Of a DNA stretch of 64,000 bases, positions 40,534 through 55,274 are shown piece after piece. The translations under genes were made by a program, and so were the position numbers. How positions within the stretch are numbered: position 1 is the stretch's first letter; each line of letters starts with the position of its first letter. This DNA is from Sodalis ligni (GTDB lineage Bacteria > Pseudomonadota > Gammaproteobacteria > Enterobacterales > Enterobacteriaceae). Below the pieces are notes generated by a model. That model was given only the letters and a program-made list of their open reading frames with translations, was not told where the DNA came from and made no database searches. The stretch spans positions 1,798,337 through 1,862,336 of the forward strand of contig NZ_CP075169.1 in NCBI RefSeq assembly GCF_016865525.2, in the 5' to 3' direction.

Positions 40534-40696
40534 CAGACTGCTGACAAACGCACTCGGAGTCAATAAGGTGGGACAGGCTGCCAGAAGAGTAAACCGTCCG
40601 CGCCATGGATGGCGCGGATCGAGCCTACAAGGATGTATTCACGGCGTGTTTACGATCTGGCAGCCTGTTCCGACCGGGCACTTTGTCAATAAGCTC
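40534..40696 (+). repeat. palindromic interspersed repeat, copy 3, between duplicated terminator hairpins
   Basis: 163-bp element collinear with copy 2; the 102-bp core at 40570-40671 has arms GGGACAGGCTGCCAG / CTGGCAGCCTGTTCC. It is flanked by 20-base copies of the pepN terminator stem at 40514-40533 and 40697-40716. The flanking duplication differs in sequence from that at copy 2, so it comes from the locus and not from the element. Confidence 0.85.
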
Positions 40697-41873: not shown

Positions 41874-43397
41874 CTAGGACGCCGCCAGGTTGCCGGTCAT
41901 CAGCCCGACCATGTGGCCTTCGTCCAGCGACCGGCGCGGGATATCCGCCACCACGCCGCCCTGGTACATAACCAGGCACCTGTCTACCAGCACAAAGAGT
42001 TCGGCCAAATCGGTGGAGTACACCAGTACCGATCCGCCGGCGGCGGCGTAGGTATGGATAGCCTGATAAATGATCTCCTTGGTGCCGACATCCACGCCGC
42101 GGGTCGGATCGAACAGCAGCAGCGTTCTGGCCCCGGTTATCAGTGCGCGCGCAATAAGCGCCTTCTGTTGATTACCGCCGGAGAGACTGGTGATTTTAAA
42201 GTTAAGATAACGGTCGCTCAGCTCCACCTGCGGCGACACATTAGCGACGGCACGTCTTTCACCGCGGCGGTTTATGCCGCCCGCCACGCTGAACCGGCGC
42301 AAAATCGACTGGGTAATATTGGCGGCGGTGGACAGCGTGGGGAAAATGCCCTCGCTTTTACGATCCTCCGGCACAAAAGCGATGCCGCCGGATTTAAACA
42401 GCGCATCGCGGGGATTACGCAGCCTGACTTCCTGACCCTGCATCACGATTTGCCCGCCGCTGGGCGGCATCAGTCCGGCCAGGGTGCGGAATAGTTCGCG
42501 CTGGCCCTGTCCCTCCAGGCCGGCGACGCCGACGATTTCCCCGGCTCGCAGCTCAAAGGAGACCGAATCAAAATTTTGCCCGCACAGATCGTTAGCCATC
42601 AGCAACGGCTGGGAGTTTGCGCCTGGATCCGTGCCGGCCGGCGGCCGGTGTTCTCCCCGCGCTCGCCGGCCCACCATCATTTCAAAAATATCCCCATCGC
42701 CCACGTCCTCCAGACGGACGGTGGCGATGGAGCGGCCGCTGCGTAGCACTGTGGCATGAGAAGCGATTTCACGGATTTCGGCCAGACGATGGGAAATAAA
42801 CAAGACCGACGCACCCTGCGCCGTCAGGCGACGGACCAGCGTAAACAGCCAGTCGACGTCCGCCAGGGCGCCGGTGGGTTCGTCCAGTATCAATAACCGG
42901 GGCCGGCGGTGCAGGGCGCGGACGATTTCCACCCGTTGGCGGGCGGCGATGGACAGGTCATCCACCATGGCCCAGGGGGAGATATCATGGACATCATGTT
43001 CGGCCAGGATGGCATCCGCCAGGCGGGCCATCTGCCGGGGGGCGATAAGGCCTCCGGCGCCTTTGGCTGAGCGCGGCAAAAAGAAATTTTGCGCCACCGA
43101 CAGGTTGGGCAGCAGGCTCAGTTCCTGGAAAGCGGTGCAAACCCCCGCCTGGCGGGCATGTAAAGGTGAACGTGGGGCATAATCGTTTTCGTCCAGCGTC
43201 ATCGTTCCGTTATTGGGCGCGACGACCCCCGACAGAATTTTCACCAGCGTGGATTTACCCGCGCCATTCTCCCCTAACAGTGCCTGTACCTGGCCGGGAT
43301 TAAGCGTCATTGAGACGCTTTCCAGCGCCACGGTGGCACCGTAGGCTTTCGATACCGATGTCAGGGTCATGCCCTGGGATAGGTTTTGTACCATCAT
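41874..43397 (-). CDS. CUT2-type sugar ABC transporter, duplicated ATPase (RbsA/MglA-like)
   Basis: Energises the neighbouring permeases. 507 residues with two fused ATPase domains, the hallmark of the ribose/galactose (CUT2) class. The first has Walker A LLGENGAGKSTL (about 39-50) and Walker B LLILDEPTGAL. The second has a degenerate P-loop GLEGQGQRELF, as is normal for RbsA, the signature LSGGNQQKALIARAL (about 410) and a Walker B LLLFDPTRGVDVGTKE in which Asp-Pro replaces Asp-Glu-Pro. It is the last gene of the leftward island, 56 bases after the binding-protein gene. The substrate is unknown. Confidence 0.92.
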   Translation of the reverse strand: MMVQNLSQGMTLTSVSKAYGATVALESVSMTLNPGQVQALLGENGAGKSTLVKILSGVVAPNNGTMTLDENDYAPRSPLHARQAGVCTAFQELSLLPNLSVAQNFFLPRSAKGAGGLIAPRQMARLADAILAEHDVHDISPWAMVDDLSIAARQRVEIVRALHRRPRLLILDEPTGALADVDWLFTLVRRLTAQGASVLFISHRLAEIREIASHATVLRSGRSIATVRLEDVGDGDIFEMMVGRRARGEHRPPAGTDPGANSQPLLMANDLCGQNFDSVSFELRAGEIVGVAGLEGQGQRELFRTLAGLMPPSGGQIVMQGQEVRLRNPRDALFKSGGIAFVPEDRKSEGIFPTLSTAANITQSILRRFSVAGGINRRGERRAVANVSPQVELSDRYLNFKITSLSGGNQQKALIARALITGARTLLLFDPTRGVDVGTKEIIYQAIHTYAAAGGSVLVYSTDLAELFVLVDRCLVMYQGGVVADIPRRSLDEGHMVGLMTGNLAAS

Positions 43398-43453
43398 TTC
43401 GTTCGCCTTTTGAAAAGCCGCCGGCGCCAGAGCCCCGACGGCGCGCCGGTGGA

Positions 43454-44686
43454 TTAAGGTTGAACCGTCGCCGTGACTTTGGTGAGCCTGTATTGGTCAA
43501 CCGGCGGCTGGCAGTGTTCGCAATTGATACCCGGTTCGTCGGGGGCTTTCACAATCGCTGCCGGCAGCGGCTGGATGGTCATCCCCGGCGTTGGAGTGCC
43601 TTTGAGCGCCGAGTCCAGCGTCACTTCCGGTAACAATGTCGGGTTATAAATCTCGGTGGAGAATCCTTCGGGTACCAGATTACCGGCAAAAACGTTACAG
43701 CCGTCGGCAATGGTGCTGCCTTTGCACAGCTTAATCTGGTCTGCCGTCGCCCAGGGCAGCGGATATTCCACGTTGGTCGGTTCCAGTTTGCGTTTGCCGG
43801 TCAGCACTTCCATCATCAATTTAAAGGCGTAGCCCGCCGTTGCCGGCGGTGAACCGGCGGAAACCCCGGTCAGCCCGCGTTTGCGATAGTCGTCGTTGAT
43901 AAATCCGAGACGGAATCCGTTCATATTTTCCCCGGTAATCGGCATCATTTTTCCTTTACGGTCGGCGACGGCGTTTAATACCCCGGCTTCACCCAATTCC
44001 GACCAAATACCGTCTACGTCCGGGTGTGCCGCCAGCGCCTTGGCAGTTTCACGCTGGCTGATACGATCGTCCCAATAGCCGTAATATTCAGAGACCACTT
44101 TGATATTCGGATATTGGGAAAATATATGCATTGCGCCGTCATAATGCCGTTTATCCACCGAGGTGCCGGGCACGCCGCGATTCATAAATATCTTTCCTTT
44201 ACCGCCAAGCGTATTAACCAGAAATTGGGCCATATTCTCACCGGCGCCGGCGGTAATATAACTGATGTTATAAGCGCATTTTTCCGTTACGGTAGAATCA
44301 AACATAAAAAACTTCACGCCTTGGCTGCATCCGCGCCGGACTACCCGATTTAACGCCGTGGGAGAAATGGGAAAGCTGATAATGCCGTCGGCCTTGGTGG
44401 CAATCATGCTTTCATAAGCCGATATTTGCGCCTGCGGGTCGGTACCGGAGATTACCTCCTCCAAATCGACCATTTTGTCGTAGGGCGGTGTTTTTGCAAG
44501 CGATTTGATAATATTGGCTGTTTCGCTCATCCAGTTATTTCCGCTATAACTCAGGCTAAGAAATATTTTGTATTTTTTAGCAGGCGGCGGCGTATCGGCG
44601 GCAAGGGCGTAATTCATTACGCCGCATAATAACAACGCCGAGGCGGCAAGAGACGCATATCTCTTGAGATATCTATTTAAAGACAT
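43454..44686 (-). CDS. periplasmic sugar-type substrate-binding protein of ABC importer
   Basis: 410 residues with a clear signal peptide (about 1-29, cut after NYALA). A periplasmic-binding type I fold is indicated by IISFPISPTALNRVVRRGC, the ribose-binding class pattern. Two cysteine pairs (about 139/153 and two near residues 330-340, LCKGSTIADGC) may form disulphides, and the C-terminal tail (INCEHCQPP) has two more. It follows the permease genes by 79 bases. The ligand cannot be predicted; genomic context suggests a nitrile-bearing or glycosylated compound, which is inference only. Confidence 0.88.
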   Translation of the reverse strand: MSLNRYLKRYASLAASALLLCGVMNYALAADTPPPAKKYKIFLSLSYSGNNWMSETANIIKSLAKTPPYDKMVDLEEVISGTDPQAQISAYESMIATKADGIISFPISPTALNRVVRRGCSQGVKFFMFDSTVTEKCAYNISYITAGAGENMAQFLVNTLGGKGKIFMNRGVPGTSVDKRHYDGAMHIFSQYPNIKVVSEYYGYWDDRISQRETAKALAAHPDVDGIWSELGEAGVLNAVADRKGKMMPITGENMNGFRLGFINDDYRKRGLTGVSAGSPPATAGYAFKLMMEVLTGKRKLEPTNVEYPLPWATADQIKLCKGSTIADGCNVFAGNLVPEGFSTEIYNPTLLPEVTLDSALKGTPTPGMTIQPLPAAIVKAPDEPGINCEHCQPPVDQYRLTKVTATVQP

Positions 44687-44765
44687 ATTAACTCCTGAAT
44701 AGTTATTGAAGGTTTATACCCTGCATCTTTCAATTTGCAGGTCTGACGGTTTTCTTACTCACCCG

Positions 44766-45803
44766 TTATTTCTTGAATAATTTGGCACAATTTTCCAGCC
44801 AGACGGCCAACGCATTATCCGAACCGGATTGAAATAATAGCGCCAGGGTTATTACGACACCTGATACTATTTGTCGCCAGCCCTGGCTCAGCCCGGTCGC
44901 GGCGATAACCGAATCGAGGGTGACCAAGAATAGACATCCGACAATGGTGCCGACAAAAGTGCCTTTACCGCCCAGGATAGATGAACCGCCCACCACCACG
45001 GCGGCAATCGACGGCAGCAGATAAGGATCGCCCATGCGCAACGTCGCCCCGTCGGAATAGCCGGTCAGAAGCGCCCCGCCGGCGGCGGCGCTCAGGCCGC
45101 TGAGCGCATAGGCGGCGATGGTGACGCTGGTGACGGGCAGGCCGCTGACGCGCGCCGCTCCAAGGCTACCGCCGATCGCATACAGATTGCGGCCGAACAC
45201 CGTGCTCTTCTGGATAAATATCCCCAGCAGGCAAAACAGGATAAAGAACACCAGGATGCAAGGCATGCCGGCTATCGATCCTTTTACCAGCGCCGACAAC
45301 AGCGGCGGCGACGCGCCCAGGGTACTGCCGCCGCTGGCGCCCAGCGCCAGCGAGGCGACGATAATGCCGGTGCCCATCGTCATGATAAAAGGCGGGATGC
45401 CGAGTAGGGCGATGCCGATGCCGCTAAAGGCGCCAATCGCCGCCGCACCCAGCAAAATCAGCGGCAGCATGTAGGCGACATTGCCGCCGTCTGCGCCGAT
45501 GGCCCCGGCGGACATGACGCCGCCGAACATAAACAGCGAGGCGACCGACAGGTCCATACCGCCGCTCAGGATCACCAATCCCTGGCCGAACGACACCAAC
45601 AGTAAAAATGTGCTCAGGGTTACTATCATCAGCATCTGAGACCATGAGCCTAGGGCCGGGCTGATCAACCGGGAAGCGAAAATCATCAGCACTGTCAGCA
45701 GGAGCAGCATCAGCGGCGCAATATACTCCCCATTGATGCGCGATCCTGTCCGTTGATCGCGCCGTGGGGAGGCGCTCGGGTTAACCGGTGTAGACGTATT
45801 CAT
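44766..45803 (-). CDS. CUT2-type ABC transporter permease 1
   Basis: 345 residues with eight to ten membrane helices. The CUT2 permease signatures GQGLVILSGGMDLSVAS (about 68-84) and VVVGGSSILGGKGTFVGTI (about 266-284) are present. Its start overlaps the end of permease 2 by four bases. It pairs with the RbsA-like ATPase and the binding protein downstream. Confidence 0.92.
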   Translation of the reverse strand: MNTSTPVNPSASPRRDQRTGSRINGEYIAPLMLLLLTVLMIFASRLISPALGSWSQMLMIVTLSTFLLLVSFGQGLVILSGGMDLSVASLFMFGGVMSAGAIGADGGNVAYMLPLILLGAAAIGAFSGIGIALLGIPPFIMTMGTGIIVASLALGASGGSTLGASPPLLSALVKGSIAGMPCILVFFILFCLLGIFIQKSTVFGRNLYAIGGSLGAARVSGLPVTSVTIAAYALSGLSAAAGGALLTGYSDGATLRMGDPYLLPSIAAVVVGGSSILGGKGTFVGTIVGCLFLVTLDSVIAATGLSQGWRQIVSGVVITLALLFQSGSDNALAVWLENCAKLFKK

Positions 45804-46810
45804 CTGGCCGTACCTCCTGCGCGGGGGCGATTAATCACCCGGCCGCACACAATGGCTAAAATCAGTAATACCCCTTGGAAAAAACCGATATAAAACGACG
45901 CGACGCCCAGGGCAAACAGCATTTTCTGCATCAAGAGCAGCACCGCCGCGCCCACCATTGAGCCAAAGGCGCCGCCGTGCCCGCCGCTGAGGCTGGTGCC
46001 CCCGAGGGCGACCGCGGCGAACGACAGCAATAAGAAAGGCAGGCCTGCATTAGGGTCGCCGGTGGCGGTCTGGGCGCTCAGCATAAAACCCGCAGCGCCG
46101 TAAAAGCAGCCCGCCAGGATGAAGGCTTTGCAACGGGTCCATTTCACCGGTATGCCCGACAGGGCGGCGGCATTGTCATCCGCGCCGACGGCGTAAAAGG
46201 CAATACCGGTATCGGTATTTTTCAGCCCCAGCCACAGCAGGGCAAAAAAGCCGACGATCAACGCTGAAACGGGCACGGTGTTCCAGAGCATATCGGTCAG
46301 GGTATCGCTGACAAACGGGGCCACCGAACCGCCGGGCACCGGCAATAGCAGCAGCGCAATACCCTGGCTGATAATCATCGTGCCGAGCGTGGCCGCAATG
46401 GTCTGGATACCCCGATAGGCCACCAGATAACCGTTTACCGCCCCGACCACCGCCCCGGCCGCCATGGACAGCGCCAGGCTGAACAGCGCGCCCAGCGGCC
46501 CGTCGAAGGGAGCAATCGCTGTCAGCACATTGGCTATGGAAATAACCCCCGCCAGGGATAAATCGAATCCGCGGCTCAGGATCACCAACGTTTGGCCGGC
46601 GGCGGCCAGCGCCAGCGGCGCGGCGTTATTGAAAAGATTGGCTATGGAATACGCGCTGAACGCGTCCGGTTCGGCCAGCCCATACAGCACGTACATCACC
46701 AGATAGACCAAAATCGCCAACAGAGCGCCGCGAAACAGCGGTTTGCGACCGGCTTTAGGGCGTAAGCCGCCCGCGGTATGCGTATCTATACCGTGCGATA
46801 GATGACTCAT
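45800..46810 (-). CDS. CUT2-type ABC transporter permease 2
   Basis: 336 residues, paralogous to permease 1, with GQTLVILSRGFDLSLAGVIS (about 78-97) and the loop VALGGTSLSGGHGGAFGSMV. Two different permeases in one CUT2 operon imply a heterodimeric channel. Transcription likely continues from the cobalt transporter gene, 53 bases upstream on the same strand. Confidence 0.92.
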   Translation of the reverse strand: MSHLSHGIDTHTAGGLRPKAGRKPLFRGALLAILVYLVMYVLYGLAEPDAFSAYSIANLFNNAAPLALAAAGQTLVILSRGFDLSLAGVISIANVLTAIAPFDGPLGALFSLALSMAAGAVVGAVNGYLVAYRGIQTIAATLGTMIISQGIALLLLPVPGGSVAPFVSDTLTDMLWNTVPVSALIVGFFALLWLGLKNTDTGIAFYAVGADDNAAALSGIPVKWTRCKAFILAGCFYGAAGFMLSAQTATGDPNAGLPFLLLSFAAVALGGTSLSGGHGGAFGSMVGAAVLLLMQKMLFALGVASFYIGFFQGVLLILAIVCGRVINRPRAGGTAR

Positions 46811-46863: not shown

Positions 46864-47913
46864 TCAACTTTGTTCAAACTTGACATCGATGTCGTCGAAA
46901 TTGCGCAGGCGGTAGATCATCATCGAGATGCCCCAGCAGCCGATAAACAAGGCGATGACGATATAACCCAATAGATTGAAATGGGCGGTCAGGTTCTGGA
47001 TAACGTCCCACGCGCTTCCTTGCAGGGACAGTTTGTCGGATAGCAGCGCCAGCACTTCGATACCGCCGATAAAAAACGCCACCATTACCGACAGCAAAGT
47101 GATGGTCATGTTGTAGTAGATTTTTCGGATGGGACGAACAAAGGCCCAGCGGTAAGCGCCGACCATCAGCATGCCGTCCAGGGTATCAATCAGCAGCATG
47201 CCGGCGGTGAACAATGCGGGCATTACCATGATGCTCAGCAAGGAGAGTCCGCCGTGGGCCTGGGTGGAAGACAGTCCGAACAGCGCCACCTCGGTGGCGG
47301 TATCAAAGCCGATTCCGAACAGAAAGCCAATGGGGAATAAATGCCAGCTTTTTGACACCAGCGCAAACAGCGGGCGAAAGATCCTGGCAAAAAATCCCCG
47401 GCGGCTGAGGAGTAAATCCAGGTCTTCTTCAATGATTTCCTCGCCCCGGCGCACGGCGCGGAACGATTTAAACACCGACAGGAAAATCAGAAAATTGATC
47501 GCGGCGAGAAACAGCAGGAAAGATGCGGAGGCGATGGTACTGATAATGCCGCCGATGGCCTTCATATTGCCCATGTAATTTTGGATAGCAACCGAGGCCG
47601 CCACCACGCCGGCACACACCAATATAACCACGGACGCGTGGCCGAGTGAGAAGAAAAAACCGGCGCTGCTGGCCGTTTTGCCTTCCTGCATCAGCTTTCG
47701 CGTGGCGTTATCAATGGCTGCGATATGATCGGCATCCACAGCGTGGCGCAGGCCGAAGGTGTAGGCCAGCAATGACGTACCCAGGAGTGTGGGTTGATCG
47801 TGGAATAATAACAGCGCCCATGCCCAGGCAACGACGTTAAGAATCACAATGGCCCAACGGAGAAAACGGGTGTGCTCGTCGCCTTTAATAAACTGTTGTA
47901 AAACATCTTTCAT
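46864..47913 (-). CDS. HoxN/NicT/NhlF-type nickel/cobalt permease
   Basis: Eight-helix inner-membrane secondary transporter for Ni2+ or Co2+. 349 residues from the ATG at 47911-47913, which follows AGGTG; an in-frame GTG lies three codons upstream. The metal signature in helix II is present as RHAVDADHIAAIDN (about 58-71), with a second motif LFGIGFDTATEVALF. It lies next to a cobalt-type nitrile hydratase, as NhlF does in Rhodococcus, so cobalt supply is the likely role. Confidence 0.93.
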   Translation of the reverse strand: MKDVLQQFIKGDEHTRFLRWAIVILNVVAWAWALLLFHDQPTLLGTSLLAYTFGLRHAVDADHIAAIDNATRKLMQEGKTASSAGFFFSLGHASVVILVCAGVVAASVAIQNYMGNMKAIGGIISTIASASFLLFLAAINFLIFLSVFKSFRAVRRGEEIIEEDLDLLLSRRGFFARIFRPLFALVSKSWHLFPIGFLFGIGFDTATEVALFGLSSTQAHGGLSLLSIMVMPALFTAGMLLIDTLDGMLMVGAYRWAFVRPIRKIYYNMTITLLSVMVAFFIGGIEVLALLSDKLSLQGSAWDVIQNLTAHFNLLGYIVIALFIGCWGISMMIYRLRNFDDIDVKFEQS

Positions 47914-47948
47914 CGTATTCACCTGTCAATAGACTGCTTAACGTTAGG

Positions 47949-48002: not shown

Positions 48003-48500
48003 TTACCGTGTCGCTGCGCGGCCCGGCGATACCGCGATGGGCGTGGGTGCCGCCGGACCCTGGGCATGATGATGGTGATGATGAGCATGGGGCGCCGGCG
48101 TGAGAGACGCCCGCTCCAGCGCGGCGCAGGGATCGGCGATTTGCTCCACCTGGTTGAGCGAGACCGGCTGGCCGTGTGGAGTATGAAGATAAGCCAAGTG
48201 CCATAAGGCCTGCCGCGTGGTCACATCTTCTTCGCGCAGCACCGCCTTGTGCTCCAGCAACCGTTCCAGCGCCGCCAGCCATTGCCGGTAGTAGGCGTCG
48301 CCGATGCTTTCATCTGCCCGCTGCGGCTGTTCGCGGATAATGGCCGAGAAAGCCTGTACCCACTCCGTCCAGCTATACAGCCCTCCGTGGGATAGCTGCA
48401 ACGCGGTGGCGAAGGCTTCCGCCTGCCAGGGTTCGCCAAACGACATCTCGGGTTCGTCCATAATGGGAATCGGCCGCTGTTCCTGTGTTGACGTGGTCAT
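48003..48500 (-). CDS. nitrile hydratase accessory (activator/subunit-swapping) protein with His-rich tail
   Basis: Cobalt-type nitrile hydratases need a small beta-like partner (P14K/NhlE) that delivers cobalt-loaded alpha subunit. The 165-residue product has the family core FGEPWQAEAFATALQLSHGG and YSWTEWVQAFSAII (about 20-55), then a second helical region (AYYRQWLAALERLL). It is longer than typical P14K (about 104 residues in strain J1) because of a C-terminal extension containing HAHHHHHH (about 137-144), a plausible cobalt-binding tail. The start is 3 bases from the beta-C stop, with GGAGGG upstream. Confidence 0.87.
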   Translation of the reverse strand: MTTSTQEQRPIPIMDEPEMSFGEPWQAEAFATALQLSHGGLYSWTEWVQAFSAIIREQPQRADESIGDAYYRQWLAALERLLEHKAVLREEDVTTRQALWHLAYLHTPHGQPVSLNQVEQIADPCAALERASLTPAPHAHHHHHHAQGPAAPTPIAVSPGRAATR

Positions 48501-48503
48501 GTA

Positions 48504-48866
48504 TTAGCCCTCCGCCGGTGCGGGGTCTATGTAGTCATCCCACAGATCGAGATAGACGGCTGACTTTCCTTCGGTCTGTGCGCCCCAAAGCGCCTGCGCC
48601 TCGAAACGCACGCTGTAGACATGCTGTGGCCGTTCCCCCTGCCCGTGGGCGGTGGTGTCGGGGAACACAAAGGCGCCCTGGTGGCGGAACACGGTGCCGG
48701 TTTTGCCGCGCACATAGCGGGGCAGGCGCGTGTGTCCCTTGGGATGAATATTTTTCGCCTGCACCCGATCCCCTGCGTTGAAACGCTGCGCACGGTCGGT
48801 AGGACGTACATATACCGGATTGGTTTTTACCGCCGCCAATACCTGATCTTTTTCCAATACCATCAT
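48504..48866 (-). CDS. cobalt nitrile hydratase, separate beta C-terminal-domain subunit
   Basis: 120 residues matching the C-terminal half of ordinary nitrile hydratase beta subunits: FNAGDRVQAKNIHPKGHTRL, PRYVRGKTGTV, VFPDTTAHGQGERPQHVYSV and a final LWDDYIDP. It starts at an ATG overlapping the stop of the upstream gene (ATGA) and has its own consensus SD AGGAGG six to nine bases upstream. It is therefore an independent gene and not a frameshift relic. Three-gene enzymes of this kind are known: thiocyanate hydrolase and toyocamycin nitrile hydratase ToyJKL. Confidence 0.88.
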   Translation of the reverse strand: MMVLEKDQVLAAVKTNPVYVRPTDRAQRFNAGDRVQAKNIHPKGHTRLPRYVRGKTGTVFRHQGAFVFPDTTAHGQGERPQHVYSVRFEAQALWGAQTEGKSAVYLDLWDDYIDPAPAEG

Positions 48867-49174
48867 GGCCGTGCCTCCTGGAGCTGTTTGATTTTGTCTG
48901 CAAGTTCTTCGGCGGTGAACAGGCCGTTATCCAGGCCCAGGGTTTCCATGGCATGGAACCAATGGACATAGTAAGGCGTGCTCAGGTACTCGGCGGGATC
49001 CATCACTTCTATGGCGTGGCGGAACTCGTCAATGGGGCACAGGCCGCCGGCAAAATAGAGGCCGATGGTGGAGAAAACCTGCTTTTCCCAGGCGGCTTTA
49101 AACACCGGTTCGTTGTGATCAGGATTGATCGGTCCCAGGTTGTGCATGCCGCCGACATCGTGAATTGAATTCAT
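48863..49174 (-). CDS. cobalt nitrile hydratase, separate beta N-terminal-domain subunit
   Basis: 103 residues matching the N-terminal half of the beta subunit: MNSIHDVGGMHNLGPINP, NEPVFKAAWE and DEFRHAIEVMDPAEYL. Arg52 falls at the position of the conserved beta arginine that contacts the oxidised cysteines of the alpha subunit. It ends at a domain boundary (QLQEARP) where ordinary beta subunits have a variable linker. The SD is CTGGAGA. It is 16 bases after the alpha gene. Confidence 0.88.
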   Translation of the reverse strand: MNSIHDVGGMHNLGPINPDHNEPVFKAAWEKQVFSTIGLYFAGGLCPIDEFRHAIEVMDPAEYLSTPYYVHWFHAMETLGLDNGLFTAEELADKIKQLQEARP

Positions 49175-49190: not shown

Positions 49191-49802
49191 TCAAGGGTGG
49201 GTGACCGGCGCCAGCAGGTCGGTTCCGATCATCGAGTCACGGCTCACCAGTGACGCCAATTGTTCTTCGCTCATGTCCTCGCTGCCCGCAGGACGCTGCG
49301 GCAGCACCAGATAGCGGATTTCGGCATTGCTGTCCCAGACCCGGACCTCGACGCTATCATCAAGGGTTACCCCGAATTCGGCCAGCACGGCGCGCGGCTC
49401 GATCACCGCACGCGAGCGATACTGCGGCGCTTTGTACCAGGTGGGCGGCAGGCCGAGTGTCGGCCAGGGATAGCATGAGCACAGGGTACAAACCACCATG
49501 TTGTGCACGGCGTCGGTGTTTTCCGCGACGTACATGTGCGCGCCTTCCAGGCCGGTAAACCCCAGTTCGGCAATGGCCGCGGTTGCATCTGCGAGCAGCC
49601 GCTGTTTATAAGCGGGATCCGCCCAGGCTTTTGCCACAACCTTGGCGCCGTTTTTTGGTGCGAAACGGTGCTCGAAGATATCGATGATTTCATCGATGGC
49701 TTCCGGTTTCAGATAGCCTTTCTCAATTAATAGCGATTGAATGGCCTTGATTCGCAATGTGGGAATCGACGGCGGCGTCGTAGGTTCAAAAACGTCTTTC
49801 AT
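49191..49802 (-). CDS. nthA: cobalt-type nitrile hydratase alpha subunit
   Basis: Hydrates nitriles to amides. 203 residues. The metal site [11 protein letters not shown] (C105, C108, C110 with T106 and S109) is the cobalt version; iron enzymes have CSLCSC. The following [26 protein letters not shown] and WDSNAEIRY are family hallmarks. AGGAGATC precedes the ATG. It is the first gene of the leftward hydratase-transport operon, behind a 222-base leader with a terminator and antiterminator-type hairpin. Confidence 0.95.
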
Positions 49803-50024
49803 TACGATCTCCTGTGTTGTGACGTTATTTTTTACGCATGTGCTTTAAGAACATGGTGTCGCGGTTATGCGTAAAGCGATAAAAAAAGCCCCAGCGACTC
49901 AAACGAGTCGTTGGGGCATCTTTGCCGATTCTGCGCTGTTCAGCGACCGGTGATTTTATATTCCGGCCACATCTTTAATACCGTTAAGCATTACCCTTAT
50001 CAGCCACTCATACGGCATTCTTTG
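49803..50024 (-). promoter_or_regulatory. untranslated leader of the nitrile hydratase operon
   Basis: Predicted 222-nt leader between the sigma-54 start site (about 50024) and the nthA ATG. It contains an early stem-loop (CGC-TGAACA-GCG, 49934-49945), an ANTAR-type hexaloop hairpin and an intrinsic terminator. The tail (49803-49880) has no further strong structure. With the promoter region this accounts for the 425-base gap upstream of nthA. Confidence 0.65.
49881..49926 (-). terminator. ANTAR-type hexaloop hairpin overlapping an intrinsic terminator (NHase leader)
   Basis: Minus strand: GGC-AAAGAT-GCC (49926-49915) has a six-base loop with A at position 1 and G at position 4, as in ANTAR targets. 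Its 3' GCC is also the base of the terminator stem GCCCCAACGACTC / GAGTCGCTGGGGC (49917-49888, one mismatch), which is followed by seven T. The two folds are mutually exclusive. The same hairpin occurs in the amidase-operon leader. Confidence 0.75.
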
Positions 50025-50034
50025 CTATTAACTA

Positions 50035-50050
50035 AGCAATTAGGGTGCCA
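50035..50050 (-). promoter_or_regulatory. sigma-54 promoter of the nitrile hydratase operon
   Basis: TGGCAC-CCTAAT-TGCT on the minus strand matches the -24/-12 consensus (TGGCAC-N5-TTGCW) with GG and GC exactly 12 bases apart. Start predicted near 50024. Confidence 0.8.
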
Positions 50051-50165
50051 AAACGGCTTTTAATCAGAAATCTATATAAAACATGAGATTGTTTCAAAAA
50101 TAATCAATTTTACGCTTGGCACCAGGAAAATATGATTCATCCAGGTGCAATTTATTTGTGAAATA

Positions 50166-50181
50166 TCACCACTTTTGTGCA
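50166..50181 (-). promoter_or_regulatory. possible NtrC enhancer site
   Basis: TGCACAAAAGTGGTGA on the minus strand has GCAC-N7-GTGA, one base from the NtrC core GCAC-N7-GTGC, about 150 bases upstream of the sigma-54 start. A separate inverted pair GGCACCAGG / CCAGGTGCA lies at 50118-50149 and may bind another activator. Confidence 0.35.
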
Positions 50182-50227
50182 TAATTATCCTTGTTAGTTG
50201 TAATGGCATCCTGCTCTGGCAAAATAA

Positions 50228-50874
50228 TTAACACGCTAAGTTATTTTTATCAGGATCAAAACAGCTGCGGGATTTAATTTTCTGCAACCACTCATGGGGT
50301 CTGGCCAATAATTCAATGCTGAGTTCTTCCACGGTTGTTTGCCGCTCAGTGGCGAACCGGCGCAGTAAAATATAGGACTGCTGTTCGTCGCACTGTAATG
50401 TGTTCATTAACAAAATTTGTGCCGACAGTAAAACTTTCGCGACTTGACCCGGATCTCCAGCTTTGCGATGGTGGTTTTATCATCCTGCTTGCGCCGATAT
50501 TGGTTCATCGCCAGCAGGATGGTGGAGAATATCCCTTCTGACTTCATGGGTTTACGCAAATAGCCGTCGATATCCTGGTTGATAATCCACAGCAGGCGGG
50601 ACGGTGCTTCCGATCCCAGCAACGCGATTTTCGGGCATTCCGGCCAGGGCTGCGCTTCCAACTGCCGCAATAAGATATTATTGTCGCTGTCGAAAATAAC
50701 CATGTCATGCCCGCTGTTCAGAGTAGCGGGTTCGGGTTCGGTAAAAGGAATGCCCATGATGCCCAGGCGGCGGAACTGCTGCAATAAATGCTGTTCATCA
50801 CGCGCGTTGCAGCCTAACAGCGCAATTCGCAAGCCGCGCACCACCAATCGGTTATTTTTCACGTTATCCCTCAT
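50228..50874 (-). pseudogene. AmiR-like ANTAR antiterminator, one-base frameshift
   Basis: AmiR is a two-domain RNA-binding antiterminator: an unphosphorylated receiver-like domain, a coiled coil and a C-terminal ANTAR domain. The N-terminal part (ATG at 50872-50874, MRDNVKNNRLVVRGLRIALL) runs through KLEIRVKSRKF. The frame is then lost at about 50432-50436, and the ANTAR part continues at ILLMNTLQCDEQQSYILLRR to the TAA at 50228 (ATERQTTVEELSIELLA). One missing A in a short A-run restores a protein of about 215 residues (P. aeruginosa AmiR 196). As sequenced, the ANTAR domain is lost. It is last in the amidase-amiC-amiR unit. A GTG at 50892 is an alternative start. Confidence 0.75.
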
Positions 50875-50878
50875 CGCG

Positions 50879-52057
50879 TCAGCGTTTCGCACCGGGTTCG
50901 GGCACTCCGACCCAGGTAAGATAGGGGTCGGGCTTTACCGGTTCGGGCGCCTGCCAAAAAATATGGAATTTGCCGTCCGCGCCGCAGCGCGCCAGTTTGG
51001 GCGTTAGCCAGGCATGATTGTTATCCGCATCGATCCGGGTTGCGCCGTTGGGAGCCATGAAAACATCCTCGTAGGCCGCCTGGCGAACCAGCGCCACATC
51101 ATCGCTGCCGCAGCGCGTAATGGCATTCGCCAGCATATGGCCGCCAATCCATGCCGCCTCGGCATCTACCGACGGCGAACAGTCCTCGCCGAAACGCCGG
51201 CGATAGCGCGCCAGGAACTGTGCATTTTCCGGCGTATCTATCGATTGGAAATACACCGCGGAAACCAGGTAGCCTTCCACCGTTTCGGCGCCGACCATAT
51301 TCACTTCCGCTTCACAAAGGGTCAGGCTAAGCCGCGCGATGGGGTGTGAGCGCAAAAAAGGGTGGTCGGCCGCCATGTCATGCCAGACGCGGTAAAAGCG
51401 GTAAGCGGAAATACCTACCAGGGTAACCAACACCACCGGCGGTTTTTTAACGATGATATCCTCTATAATCGCCGCAACCTCGGTTTCCCCCAGCGGCAAC
51501 AGGCGGCTGGCGATCATGCGTCCACCCAGGGGCTCCACGGTTTCGCCCGTGATTCTGTCGATTTCCCAGGACCAGACATAATCGGAACCGATATGATAGA
51601 TATCCGGCTGGTAGTGCTCAGCGACGTATCGAATCATCGGCAGGACATGCTGGTTGGGCGCCGCGCCGAGGTAGATCACATTATTGCTGCTTTCGAACCC
51701 CTCATAGCGCGCGGTATGCCATAGCAGGGCGTTGGCCCCCTCAACCAGCGGCAGGATCTGCTTGCGCGACGCCGACGTATAACATCCGACGATATGCCTG
51801 ACGCCGTGCCGGTAAAGCAATTCATGGCAATAGTGATAATAGTTTTCCAGGTTGCAGGCCGGGTCGAAAATCACCGGCGCCAGGGTAAATGGCAAGGCGG
51901 GATTGGCGTTAACCTCTTCAATGGCCAACAGGATGCCGTTAAGCATTTCCCGTCCAATGACGCCGTACTGGCCCGAGACGGAATAAAGAATACCGACCGG
52001 AATCGGTGACTCCCGCCGGCCGCGGTATGGCCGCGGATGTATGGCCGTAGTGAGCAT
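50879..52057 (-). CDS. AmiC-like cytoplasmic ligand sensor (periplasmic-binding-protein fold)
   Basis: 392 residues, no signal peptide. It is collinear with P. aeruginosa AmiC: PVGILYSVSGQYGVIGREML, RHIVGCYTSASRKQILPLVE, LGAAPNQHVLPMI, HIGSDYVWSWE, LCEAEVNMVGAETVEGYLVS and WQAPEPVKPDPYL. In the Pseudomonas system AmiC holds AmiR inactive until an amide binds. The ATG follows AAAAGGAG. It lies between the hydrolase and the amiR-like gene with short spacing. UrtA-type urea-binding proteins are the nearest alternative but are exported. Confidence 0.88.
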   Translation of the reverse strand: MLTTAIHPRPYRGRRESPIPVGILYSVSGQYGVIGREMLNGILLAIEEVNANPALPFTLAPVIFDPACNLENYYHYCHELLYRHGVRHIVGCYTSASRKQILPLVEGANALLWHTARYEGFESSNNVIYLGAAPNQHVLPMIRYVAEHYQPDIYHIGSDYVWSWEIDRITGETVEPLGGRMIASRLLPLGETEVAAIIEDIIVKKPPVVLVTLVGISAYRFYRVWHDMAADHPFLRSHPIARLSLTLCEAEVNMVGAETVEGYLVSAVYFQSIDTPENAQFLARYRRRFGEDCSPSVDAEAAWIGGHMLANAITRCGSDDVALVRQAAYEDVFMAPNGATRIDADNNHAWLTPKLARCGADGKFHIFWQAPEPVKPDPYLTWVGVPEPGAKR

Positions 52058-52071
52058 CGCGTCTCCTTTTA

Positions 52072-53808
52072 TTATGCGGTTTCACCGGGCTGGCAACGGA
52101 TTAAATCCGGATAAAAATGCGTTTGGCGCATGGCCACCAGGTCCTTGCGCCTTACGACATTGGTGGGATAAGTACTGTCGAGATTACGGGTGTCCACATC
52201 TTCAGTGACCACGTCGCCGGCTCCCACCACCAGGGATTCGCGCCGCGGCCAGAGGAAGGTGTCCGGTCCGAAGATACCGCTGGGCAGCACCGGCAGCGAC
52301 TCGCTGCTATCCTGGGCGTTGGCGAACGCCAGATACACATTATTTTCCCCGGCCCGGACCCTGGGCAGTAGCCAATGATAGGGACTGGCGCCGGTGGCGA
52401 TGGGGTAGTTATGCGGGATACGGGTGCCGGTATGCGCTCCGGCTGCCGGGGCGTTCAGCGCTGCGGGGCAGGCGATGATATCGCAGCCGCGCAGGGCCAG
52501 TATGCGGCCGGCCTCAGGGAAATTAAGATCGTGCCCCAACAGCAGTCCGACCCGGCCGCAGGGCAGGTCTATCGCAACCCACTCGTTGCCCGCGGCGGCC
52601 CAGGCGGCGTCTTTGGCGGTTAAATGGATCTTGCGATAGCTGCCGATGACGCCCTGCGGACCGACGGCCAGCGCGGTGTTGTAAAACGCCCCTCCTTGCG
52701 AGGCCTCCACCAGCCCGGCTACCAGGGTTAAACGGTGGCTAACCGCCAGACGCATTAGCGCGAGCACCGCTTCGCCGTCCAGCGTCAGGGCAGACTGCGG
52801 GCCTCGATATTCACCGCTCAGCGCCAGCTCGGGCAGTACCAGCAGTTCTGCCCCTTGCCGGCTGGCGCGGTCGGCCAGACGGGTGATAACGGCCAGATTG
52901 CCGGCCACGTCATCGCCAGGCGCGAATTGACCGACGGCAATACGCGAGCATTTACCGGCCGGCAGGGGGCGCATGCCGTACAGTCGGAAAAAGTCCAGCG
53001 GGTTCCAGGCATAGCTGTTGTTCATCAGCTCTTTGTACAGCGCCGGCCGGCGCTGCCGGATCAACGCGCCCGGACGGGATGCGCGCCTGATGGTGCCGCT
53101 GACCAGGCCGTCGCCGCAGTCGCGCCAAGCCTGTATATGACCGTCCGGCTCGATGATGCAGCTGCCGCCGCTGAATTGCACACCCCGTTCCAGGCCCCAG
53201 CGGTTGCTCTCGATGAGATAACAGCCGTTCTCATAGGCTCGGTTAATCCAGTAAGGTGCGGGGGTACGCTCGGCCAGCCAATTGCTGATATGGCAGATGA
53301 CATCTGCGCCGTGGATTCCCGCCAAACGGGCGGTTTCAATAAAATGGATATCCATGCAGATCAGCAGCGCAATATTTCCGATCGGCGTACTGAATACCGA
53401 ATGACCCAGATCGCCGTTGGCGGCCCACTTAGGTTCGGAAATATAAGGGTGAGTTTTTCGATGTTTGCCGATGACCCCTTCAGGACCGATAAGTACCGCT
53501 GTATTGTAATAAAGCCCGTTAACGGGGTCCTCTTCCGGTAATCCGATCACCAGATAACAATCGTAGCGCCGGGCCAGTTCGGCAAAAAGGCCGGTAGTGG
53601 CGCCGGGAACGGGTTCAACATAGGGCGCCACTTCTTCGCGATCCTGCCAGCAATAGCCGGTGGTGCCCATTTCCGGCATTACCACCAGACGCGCGCCCTG
53701 TCGTGCGGCCTGTTCCGCCAGGTCCAGCAGGCGGCGGATATTCTCTTCTTTATGGAATAACCTTGGCTCAAATTGAATGGCCGCGACGGGGATTGGTTCA
53801 GTGCTCAT
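52072..53808 (-). CDS. tandem nitrilase-superfamily (carbon-nitrogen) hydrolase, likely amidase
   Basis: 578 residues with two CN-hydrolase domains. The first (about 5-270) has the full Glu-Lys-Cys triad: E46 in MPEMGTTGY, K118 in KHRKTHPY and C151 in LLICMDIHF. The second (about 288-560) keeps E327 (LPELALSGEY) and K393 (SYRKIHLT), but the nucleophile position reads GLLLGHDLNFPE, with Gly425 instead of Cys, so it should be inactive. The context (AmiC/AmiR-like genes, nitrile hydratase next door) suggests hydrolysis of the amide product to acid and ammonia; a nitrilase is the alternative. It is the first gene after the sigma-54/ANTAR leader. Confidence 0.87.
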   Translation of the reverse strand: MSTEPIPVAAIQFEPRLFHKEENIRRLLDLAEQAARQGARLVVMPEMGTTGYCWQDREEVAPYVEPVPGATTGLFAELARRYDCYLVIGLPEEDPVNGLYYNTAVLIGPEGVIGKHRKTHPYISEPKWAANGDLGHSVFSTPIGNIALLICMDIHFIETARLAGIHGADVICHISNWLAERTPAPYWINRAYENGCYLIESNRWGLERGVQFSGGSCIIEPDGHIQAWRDCGDGLVSGTIRRASRPGALIRQRRPALYKELMNNSYAWNPLDFFRLYGMRPLPAGKCSRIAVGQFAPGDDVAGNLAVITRLADRASRQGAELLVLPELALSGEYRGPQSALTLDGEAVLALMRLAVSHRLTLVAGLVEASQGGAFYNTALAVGPQGVIGSYRKIHLTAKDAAWAAAGNEWVAIDLPCGRVGLLLGHDLNFPEAGRILALRGCDIIACPAALNAPAAGAHTGTRIPHNYPIATGASPYHWLLPRVRAGENNVYLAFANAQDSSESLPVLPSGIFGPDTFLWPRRESLVVGAGDVVTEDVDTRNLDSTYPTNVVRRKDLVAMRQTHFYPDLIRCQPGETA

Positions 53809-53992
53809 AGTAAAACTCCAGGATTATCTAAAAATACTCGGCGCGTGATGTCAGCGTCCAATGGCCCCGGCAATGCGTTCAATTCCGTCAGGATAAAAAA
53901 AAGCCCCGCTAACTCAGAGAGCTAGTGGGGCATCTTTGCCGGTTCTGTTTTTTGCATGAAAAGCACGCCGTCCGCTTAACGGCTGCCGTTGA
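53809..53992 (-). promoter_or_regulatory. untranslated leader of the amidase-amiC-amiR operon
   Basis: Predicted 184-nt leader from the sigma-54 start (about 53992) to the ATG. It contains stem-loops in GCCGTTAAGCGGACGGC and TGC-TTTTCAT-GCA, then the hexaloop hairpin and the terminator described separately. Together with the promoter and pyrD upstream sequence it fills the 455-base gap before pyrD. Confidence 0.65.
53895..53940 (-). terminator. ANTAR-type hexaloop hairpin overlapping an intrinsic terminator (amidase leader)
   Basis: Minus strand: GGC-AAAGAT-GCC (53940-53929), identical to the NHase leader, with its GCC forming the base of the terminator GCCCCACTAGCTC / GAGTTAGCGGGGC (53931-53903) and eight T. 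The terminator lies inside the leader upstream of the first gene, so read-through must be regulated. The arms differ from the NHase copy while the hexaloop is conserved. Confidence 0.75.
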
Positions 53993-54002
53993 TAATGAGT
54001 TA

Positions 54003-54018
54003 AGCAGGAACTATGCCA
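54003..54018 (-). promoter_or_regulatory. sigma-54 promoter of the amidase operon
   Basis: TGGCAT-AGTTCC-TGCT on the minus strand, GG-to-GC spacing of 12 as required. Two bases differ from the best consensus. Start predicted near 53992. Confidence 0.7.
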
Positions 54019-54107: not shown

Positions 54108-54221
54108 AAAAATGGGCCTGTCCGCACCAAAAAAAGGCGAAGGACGCCGCCGTAATACAGCCAAGTATGGGTAAATTGCTTTTTTTTACTCCGTTCAATT
54201 TCTTTTCCGCAGGGGATGCCC

Positions 54222-54248
54222 GATAATACCGTCCCGGTTGCAACCGGG
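54222..54248 (+). promoter_or_regulatory. pyrD promoter -10 and leader hairpin
   Basis: GATAAT (54222-54227) is followed 5-11 bases later by CCGTCCCGG, and the perfect palindrome CCCGGTTG-CAACCGGG (54233-54248) lies just before the SD AGGAG. In E. coli and Salmonella pyrD, CTP level shifts the start site so that longer transcripts form a hairpin that blocks translation; the same layout is inferred. Confidence 0.5.
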
Positions 54249-54263
54249 ATATCAGGAGACCCT

Positions 54264-55274
54264 ATGTTTTATCCCCTCGTTAAACAGGCGTTATTTCAGC
54301 TCGATCCGGAACGCGCCCATGAATTCACCTTTCAGCAGCTGCGCCGAATTACCGGCACACCCTTTATGGGGCTGGTTCGCCAGTCGGTACCCGTCAAAAC
54401 GGTCAGCTGCATGGGCATAACTTTCAAGAACCCGCTGGGGCTGGCCGCCGGACTGGACAAAGACGGTGAGTGCATCGATGCCCTAGGCGCCATGGGCTTT
54501 GGGTTTATAGAAGTCGGCACGGTGACGCCGCGTCCGCAGCCCGGTAATGATAAACCGCGTCTGTTTCGTCTGGTGGCGGCCGAGGGGTTGATTAATCGGA
54601 TGGGGTTTAACAATAAGGGTGTTGACTATCTGGTTGAAAACGTTAAAAAATCTCATTATGACGGCGTATTGGGCATTAATATCGGCAAAAATAAAGCCAC
54701 GCCGGTAGAGCAGGGCAAGGATGATTATCTCTATTGCATGGAAAGAATATATCCCTACGCGGGATATATCGCGATAAATATTTCTTCACCCAACACTCCC
54801 GGGTTGCGGACGTTACAATTCGGCGAGGCGCTGGACTCACTATTGCTGGCCATAAAAAATAAACAGGCCGAATTGAACCAGTATCACCATAAATATGTCC
54901 CCGTTGCGGTGAAAATAGCCCCAGACCTGACGGATGAGGAGCTGTCCCAAGTGGCCGATAGCCTGGTGCGCCATAATATCGACGGTGTGATCGCCACCAA
55001 TACCACCACCGGACGGGAGTTGGTCCAGGGTTTGGAACATTGCAATCAAACCGGCGGCTTGAGCGGTCGCCCGCTGCAATCACGCAGCACGGAGGTGATA
55101 CGGCGTCTGTCCCTGGAATTAAACGGCAAATTACCCATCATTGGCGTGGGCGGCATTGACTCTTTGGTGGCGGCGCGGGAAAAAATAGCCGCGGGCGCAT
55201 CGCTGATTCAAATATATTCCGGGTTCATTTTTCACGGTCCGCAGCTGATTAAAGATATTCTTACTCATATTTGA
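54264..55274 (+). CDS. pyrD: dihydroorotate dehydrogenase (quinone) PyrD
   Basis: Class 2 membrane-associated flavoenzyme of pyrimidine synthesis. The ATG at 54264 follows AGGAG and gives [20 protein letters not shown], 336 residues, the E. coli length. FMN and substrate motifs [41 protein letters not shown] (catalytic Ser region) and IGVGGIDS are present. An upstream extension to 54216 would cross the promoter and hairpin. It marks the right border of the accessory island; zapC follows. Confidence 0.97.

Follow-up and report, generated by a model that had tools for sequence, protein, structure and literature searches.

The window analysed here, a 64,000-nt stretch of the Sodalis ligni genome, carries two adjoining leftward operons, each of which begins with an untranslated leader (leaders B and A) holding a small hairpin and an intrinsic terminator, with genes for an AmiC-like sensor and an AmiR-like antiterminator lying between the two leaders. 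Read leftward from the pyrD side, the order is promoter, leader B, hydrolase, AmiC-like gene, AmiR-like gene, promoter and leader A, and thereafter nitrile hydratase alpha and beta, an accessory protein, a NicO transporter and an ABC transporter. Features are on the minus strand unless marked otherwise. We suggest that both leaders are attenuators controlled by AmiR.

Leader B has its antiterminator hairpin GGC-AAAGAT-GCC (P2) at 53929–53940, with the loop at 53932–53937, and its intrinsic terminator at 53903–53931 (core −19.3 kcal/mol; U tract 53895–53902). The corresponding elements of leader A are P2 at 49915–49926 (loop 49918–49923) and the terminator at 49888–49917 (core −21.6 kcal/mol; U tract 49881–49887). 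An initial annotation of this DNA had pointed to an identical hairpin in both leaders that shares its GCC with the terminator, and to loop bases A1 and G4. We find the same: GGCAAAGATGCC occurs at both places, the terminator stem of each leader has the 3' GCC of this 12-mer at its base, 7–8 T follow each terminator, and both loops carry A1 and G4.

That annotation did not include the sigma-54-type −24/−12 promoter before each leader, recognized by pattern match as TGGCATAGTTCCTGCTT (54002–54018) for the hydrolase-amiC-amiR operon and TGGCACCCTAATTGCTT (50034–50050) for the nitrile hydratase operon, from which transcription would start near 53992 and near 50024, respectively. The elements TGGCAY-N5-YTGC of sigma-54 (NtrC-type) promoters are present, and similar sites stand in the same place in related leaders. 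The promoter pattern TGGCAYNNNNNYTGCTT has two matches in the window against 0.02 expected, exactly upstream of the two leaders. The NtrC-site pattern TGCAC-N6-GGTG has one exact match (50167–50181), a lead only, such matches being scattered across the window (26 with at most one mismatch against 17.4 expected, a number reached in 1 of 100 shuffles).

The first gene after leader B (52072–53808) encodes a two-domain carbon–nitrogen hydrolase of 578 aa, matching Pfam PF00795 in two stretches, and is followed by the gene for the AmiC-like sensor (50879–52057; 392 aa; PF13433). The sensor has a binding-protein fold related to the amide sensor, with AmiC 1pea (E 5e-60) and 1qnl (E 1e-59) among the solved structures matched. 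The top-scoring structure, however, is that of an extracellular ligand-binding receptor (8tg1_A, E 2e-77), and there are matches to urea-binding proteins as well (1e-44 or better), so that an amide-like compound is only a candidate ligand. The initial annotation was right to place relatives of AmiC and AmiR between the leaders and missed that amiR is frame-shifted in this assembly: a 5' piece (50407–50892, with translation probably starting near 50862) carries AmiR_N (PF21332, 40.6 bits) in a frame that ends early, and a 3' piece in another frame (50228–50476, an 82-aa open frame) carries the ANTAR domain at 25.9 bits, under the Pfam cut-off of 27.3. The predicted fold of the AmiR relative matches AmiR 1QO0 and comprises a pseudo-receiver domain, a coiled coil and a three-helix ANTAR domain.

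Considering that the frame-shift separates the AmiR_N and ANTAR pieces, amiR may be a pseudogene, with the leaders as relics and the operons off or constitutive. Set against this, the frames of the hydrolase, amiC and nitrile hydratase are open, an intact amiR copy that is 99% identical exists elsewhere (P0003; 6 member sequences; 142 of 144 residues identical to the 5' piece), and both P2 blocks of the window agree with the consensus of their relatives, so that we consider a dead switch unlikely. Since there is a single assembly, a mutation and a sequencing error look alike here; if the frame-shift is real and no assembly error, the strain may have its switch locked in the off state.

Relatives were drawn from a scan of genome contigs with the AmiC alignment (the best 80 of 123). 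The same operon pair is found in Brenneria alni (L024; such numbers are our handles for loci), Acerihabitans arboris (L026; of the window's genus, with amiR intact), a Pantoea metagenome-assembled genome (L027), 'Martelella alba' (L030) and Erwinia typographi (L031), and the six enterobacterial genomes, the window's included, yield 12 expected leaders of this kind (type I). The P2 block is kept in all 12, which bears out the recurrence in related genomes that the initial annotation had made a check of its proposal. Each has a terminator-overlapping hairpin with a stem of at least 3 bp and a loop with A1 and G4, flanked on one side by a sigma-54-type site (in one leader AGGC replaces TGGC) and on the other by a gene start. 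In the alignment, 11 of the 13 columns GGCAAAGATGCCC are invariant and two are kept in 11/12; none of the 20 columns upstream exceeds 9/12, and one downstream column, in the terminator arm, reaches 12/12.

Bidirectional terminators often show an A tract facing a U tract, and in 10/12 leaders the RNAfold structure has AAAGA paired to the U tract, as a plain terminator with an upstream A tract, working with no protein, would lead one to expect. We regard this as very improbable, given that the 5' GGC, of no use to a terminator, is invariant (12/12), that loop base 6 (U in 12/12) breaks the A/U pairing in those 10 leaders, and that all 12 leaders stand between a sigma-54-type site and a gene start. 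With the 5' GGC outside the terminator and base 6 interrupting the A-tract/U-tract pairing, these alignments are most simply explained by selection on the antiterminator hairpin.

The 12-mer occurs six times in the 6.44-Mb genome, four times without a terminator. Together with one (GGCAAAGATGCC-N10-32-GGCTTTTT) it occurs twice, in these leaders, and a sample of 394 genomes of the order gave no match in the 393 besides this one. A looser pattern gave 10 matches in six genomes of the genus: the window's pair, the leaders of the corresponding operons in two relatives (four matches), and four others that do not resemble leaders. Since the two leaders belong to adjacent transcription units, and neither the exact nor the looser search gave a third convincing leader site in the genome, the dispersed regulon first proposed is not supported; these two operons seem to make up the regulon.

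We estimate a probability of about 0.72 that each leader is an AmiR-controlled attenuator of a one-hairpin, perhaps closed-loop, variety read by an ANTAR domain with threonine at the position of EutV residue 172 (Thr172). The more general proposal, that each operon has a sigma-54-type promoter followed by an antitermination switch of the AmiC/AmiR type, seems to us highly probable. By default, polymerase would halt at the leader terminator. AmiC with an amide-like ligand bound would free AmiR, which may control both leaders and whose dimer would grip the emerging GGC-AAAGAT-GCC hairpin. P2 would then take up the GCC and the loop bases otherwise paired with the U tract, so that no terminator could form and the operon would be read through. 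If closed by a 1–6 A-U pair, the loop would be a tetraloop (AAGA, AAGU or ACGA, with G third) read by the Thr172 ANTAR domain.

Further, the initial annotation had noticed no obvious second classical hairpin, and our scan concurs. In the interval from promoter to P2, where the first hairpin (P1) would lie, we scored the strongest hairpin with an A1/G4 hexaloop and compared it with 60 shuffles (L033 left out). None of the 12 type I leaders has one better than −1.9 kcal/mol (0 to −1.9; none with p <0.05), and the hairpins that RNAfold predicts upstream of P2 differ from leader to leader. The sister operons (type II; permease-hydrolase-amiC-amiR; P2 loop AAAGAA or GAAGAA) have a P1 in 7/7 leaders, at −9.1 to −17.3 kcal/mol (p 0.016–0.049; L022, L023, L025, L028, L029, L032, L034). 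No nitrile hydratase gene was seen in the type II operons, and the type II permease in L223 is annotated as a cytosine permease. The same scan, applied to the 110 nt preceding P2 in further leaders, yielded energies of −8.7 to −15.1 for 11 of those tried (L056, L067, L039, L170, L173, L179, L187, L199, L202, L241, L245), values from doubtful places of −7.8 in L130 and −5.7 in L223, and also −12.5 in L228; little or nothing was found in L018, L222, L195 and L197. L222 has a G1 hairpin only, the P1 of L223 has G1 (GCCGTA), and L195 and L197 have no A1/G4 hairpin. Leaders outside type I, as these four show, can thus be without an A1/G4 P1 as well.

A P1 with an imperfect stem or an unusual loop would escape such a scan, and the type I leaders could then be classical two-hairpin targets. 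P1 occurs in most other leaders examined (sister, Burkholderiaceae, most rhizobial and the genome's own NasR-type), a P1 without G4, as in L195, L196, L197 and L070, would elude an A1/G4 scan, AAAGAT recurs in leader A some 50 nt before P2, and EutV needs both hairpins (PMC3369931). The uniform null in 12/12 type I leaders and their inconsistent upstream folds nevertheless make us think a hidden P1 quite unlikely, and a one-hairpin architecture of these leaders is the form that we favour, with some reserve. The second AAAGAT of leader A (about 49971–49976) has no good stem; it is possibly a relic of P1. In type II, P1 and P2 are roughly 50–60 nt apart, often with another predicted hairpin between them, a longer linker than the 2–25 nt quoted in PMC8164766.

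We next consider which residue might read such a loop. According to PMC8934654, EutV contacts the loop through Arg142, Lys149, Glu160, Tyr164, Arg168, Met172 and others, the M172A exchange abolishes binding, and Met172 may, in its authors' view, keep out tetraloops. Residue 172 of AmiR is Thr in type I and Met in type II. The 3' piece in the window reads RRFATERQTT, i.e. Thr at this position, and P0003 keeps R142, K143, E160, Y164 and R168 among the EutV RNA-contact residues, has Thr at 172 and differs at 147, 149, 173, 175 and 177. At eleven contact positions Brenneria (RRSQEYRTEQT) and Mangrovibacter (RRSQEYRMEQT) differ solely at 172; likewise, when Brenneria and Acerihabitans are compared with Mangrovibacter, the contact positions differ only at 172 and the P2 hairpins only at loop base 6. 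The type I loops are AAAGAT, AAAGTT or AACGAT, in all of which bases 1 and 6 can pair. The RNAfold structure of the window hairpin is ((((....)))), with −3.5 kcal/mol, the open hexaloop reaching −2.8; the 1–6 pair is predicted in 12/12 type I leaders, closed GGCAAAGAUGCC being 0.7 kcal/mol better than open. We had at first taken the loops of type I for ordinary hexaloops, a view given up once base 6 was compared between the branches.

Thr172 is also found in Rhizobium, Paraburkholderia and other AmiRs. Among 122 labelled ANTAR proteins, many of them near kin, alignment gives 44 Thr and 78 Met, and in a class-wide sample (the 30 best-scoring loci from 47 positive genomes of 143) Met172 is present in 30/30. 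A tree built without column 172, from which 20 near-duplicate loci and rows with a profile score <80 were left out, requires two changes for Thr, forced by well-supported branches, one change sufficing in 0% of 200 bootstrap trees. Two gains are the simplest reading, the tree itself being neutral between gain and loss.

A scan of terminator-overlapping hairpins on the coding strand, with no loop base fixed except G4, found bases 1 and 6 complementary in 33/34 Thr172 and 10/37 Met172 cases (Fisher 2.6e-10, uncorrected for kinship); on the opposite strand the figures were 1/4 and 1/5. The window's own locus (L200) was left out, many of the 122 loci gave no candidate in the stretch covered, leaders about 7 kb from amiR were missed, and the counts include noise (GTCGGC in L024, GGCGTG in L057, CTTGTG in L028 and GGCGCC in L214 and L215); L188 (AATGGT, Met172, 1–6 complementary) dropped out under a stricter stem rule. 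Thinning from 72 to 54 left 18/19 Thr172 and 7/35 Met172 complementary. Plasmid loci fetched after the hypothesis had been formed gave 3/3 for Thr172 and 2/7 for Met172, with L231 and L232 unscored, L242 scored without annotation, and L235 and L236 near-copies of each other that resemble L202. By pair counts on short blocks of distinct P2 loops, chosen by ourselves, 9 Thr172 loops comprise 6 U-A and 3 A-U, and 7 of 24 Met172 loops have a 1–6 pair.

The second Thr172 branch, rhizobial and burkholderial, has U1-A6 in P2 and mostly A1-U6 in P1. In 14 distinct leaders kept, the P1 1–6 pair is A-U in 13, U-A in 1 and broken in none (these came from 22 distinct P1-plus-P2 pairs, 8 being removed as not the leader; the P1 of L138 was missed in extraction). 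With U1..A6 forced in P2 and P1 left free, P1 was AACGAT 13 times, AACGTT 4 times and AACGGT once (18/18), a count biased by choosing, from 1–7 matches per genome, the leader most like L067. Loops with A1..A6 are common with Met172; by comparison, U stands at base 6 in one Thr172 branch and at base 1 in the other, on opposite sides of one pair. Leaders of Rhizobium (L039 and relatives) hold an extra hairpin, GAGC-AGGTTT-GCTC, just upstream of P1 (GGGC-AGGTTT-GCCC in L070), whose loop is 1–6 complementary and has no G4.

What stands is that Thr172 goes with 1–6 complementary loops in nearly every case seen. The association could be a coincidence of two lineages with no bearing on specificity, considering that the tree holds only two changes, that the Met172 regulators L241 and L245 lie beside U1-A6 hairpins and that several Met172 candidates have G1-C6. 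In nearly all pairings, however, the two contrasts agree in direction (one branch having its U at base 6, the other at base 1), the second branch's P1 closes as well (14/14), and the Met172 sister leaders carry AAAGAA or GAAGAA. We hold coincidence to be a serious contender, a little short of even odds, and that Thr172 reads closed loops to be a possibility that we would put at somewhat more than one in three. The fuller proposal, that a Met172-to-Thr exchange has moved ANTAR regulators to another class of RNA loop on at least two occasions, that the Thr172 branches read a tetraloop (N-N-G-N) closed by a 1–6 Watson–Crick pair in place of the open hexaloop, and that one hairpin suffices in the enterobacterial nitrile operons, is offered tentatively, and we would expect it to fail more often than to hold.

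Besides the frame-shift, several points weigh against the reading proposed here. Since EutV, according to PMC3369931 and PMC8934654, requires both P1 and P2 and, according to the former, induction falls drastically when the linker length is altered, loss of P1 in type I is unexpected. A same-genus genome with Met172 (L018:4594–4605) has P2 AATGAA and no recognizable P1 within 110 nt, possibly a second one-hairpin leader outside the Thr172 branch. In Hansschlegelia (L035; Met172), where amiC, amiR and nitrile hydratase stand in a row, a P2-plus-terminator leader was not seen. Since there are only two independent Thr172 contrasts, where six or more in agreement would be required, the link to closed loops cannot reach significance, and since Met172 loops are complementary in 10/37 and 2/7 cases, Met172 does not exclude such loops. 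L241 (TAGGTA, 4671) and L245 (TATGTA, 4672) have U1-A6 hairpins over terminators after AmiR-like genes, perhaps as an intermediate stage, and G1..C6 is found in the Met172 candidates L166, L209, L212, L214, L215 and L020. G4 is not kept in some Thr172 P1 loops (AGGATT, TGGAGA, AGGAAT). Finally, M172A of EutV loses binding; proteins with Thr172 might simply bind weakly, with no specificity of a new kind.

AmiC/AmiR and ANTAR targets have been described before, as has their connection with nitrogen metabolism. Pseudomonas aeruginosa AmiR (1QO0) has Met aligned at 172, in contrast to the Thr found here, and, unlike that AmiC/AmiR system, the present one has no second hairpin that we recognize, two leaders around the sensor genes, a nitrile hydratase operon and sigma-54-type promoters. 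As in Klebsiella oxytoca nasF, where initiation depends on NtrC/sigma-54, a sigma-54-type promoter would be followed by specific antitermination; nasF is served by a nitrate-sensing ANTAR protein (NasR), whereas AmiC–AmiR is present here. AmiC/AmiR-like genes beside nitrile hydratase genes also occur in Rhodococcus (NhlC/NhlD). The dual-hexaloop targets of EutV/eut and NasR/nasF, as described in PMC3369931 and PMC8934654, likewise have a small A1/G4 hairpin whose 3' arm is the terminator base and are likewise linked to nitrogen metabolism; they differ from the leaders described here, which have one hairpin, complementary bases 1 and 6 and a regulator without the Met172 that EutV needs. A single hexaloop has been proposed as the minimal binding motif, and single-hexaloop sites have been raised as possible (PMC8934654). 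We found no report in the open-licence literature of one-hairpin antitermination leaders, tetraloop-type ANTAR targets or ANTAR control of nitrile hydratase. Since published search models for ANTAR targets, as far as their available descriptions go, require two hairpins with A1/G4 loops, one-hairpin leaders may be missed.

The locus comprises two adjoining nitrogen-scavenging operons, each opened by an RNA switch that a sensor-controlled protein probably flips on. The EutV–RNA structure leaves it to be asked why there are two hairpins if one dimer binds one, and whether Met172 gates out tetraloops; one-hairpin leaders, and sister regulators differing only at 172 and at loop base 6, offer natural cases for both questions. 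The three ANTAR loci of this genome have terminator-overlapping loops AAAGAU, AAAGGC and AACGAA, which differ at base 6. If the Met172/Thr switch is real, one protein position and one RNA base would insulate paralogous ANTAR circuits, which could explain how several coexist in one cell.

Of the other two loci, one (L129:6658–8140; about 2611700–2613100 of contig C1) has a NasR-like ANTAR gene (427 aa, identified by inspection) and, after it, a nitrite-reductase-like operon. The leader of that operon holds a hexaloop pair of the classical kind, AATGAG and AAAGGC, with a loop-to-loop distance of 28 nt. The other (L130:5159–6888; C1 about 2526160–2527890) has AmiC-like and AmiR-like genes, with an AACGAA hairpin over a terminator just upstream of the former. 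An AmiR-like protein on a Vibrio nigripulchritudo plasmid (L243:4968–5567) has Gln at 172; no leader was found in the stretch around its gene.

A gathering-level Rfam scan of the window gave two matches, both outside the leaders: a PyrD leader (RF02373) at 54198–54269 on the plus strand and Yersinia sRNA 224 (RF02770) at 40591–40696 on the minus strand. After leader A come the genes for the nitrile hydratase alpha subunit (49191–49802; PF02979, E 4e-89) and beta subunit (48504–49174), the latter as two open reading frames, N-terminal (48863–49174; PF21006) and C-terminal (48504–48866; PF02211), and the two matches are separate in relatives as well. Next are an accessory protein resembling the N-terminal part of the beta subunit (48003–48500; PF21006), a NicO-family Ni/Co transporter (46864–47922; PF03824) and an ABC transporter (41874–46810) with two permeases and an ATPase, named by reading of their translations, and a binding protein matching Peripla_BP_4. 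The ABC permeases and the binding protein occupy the same position in relatives.

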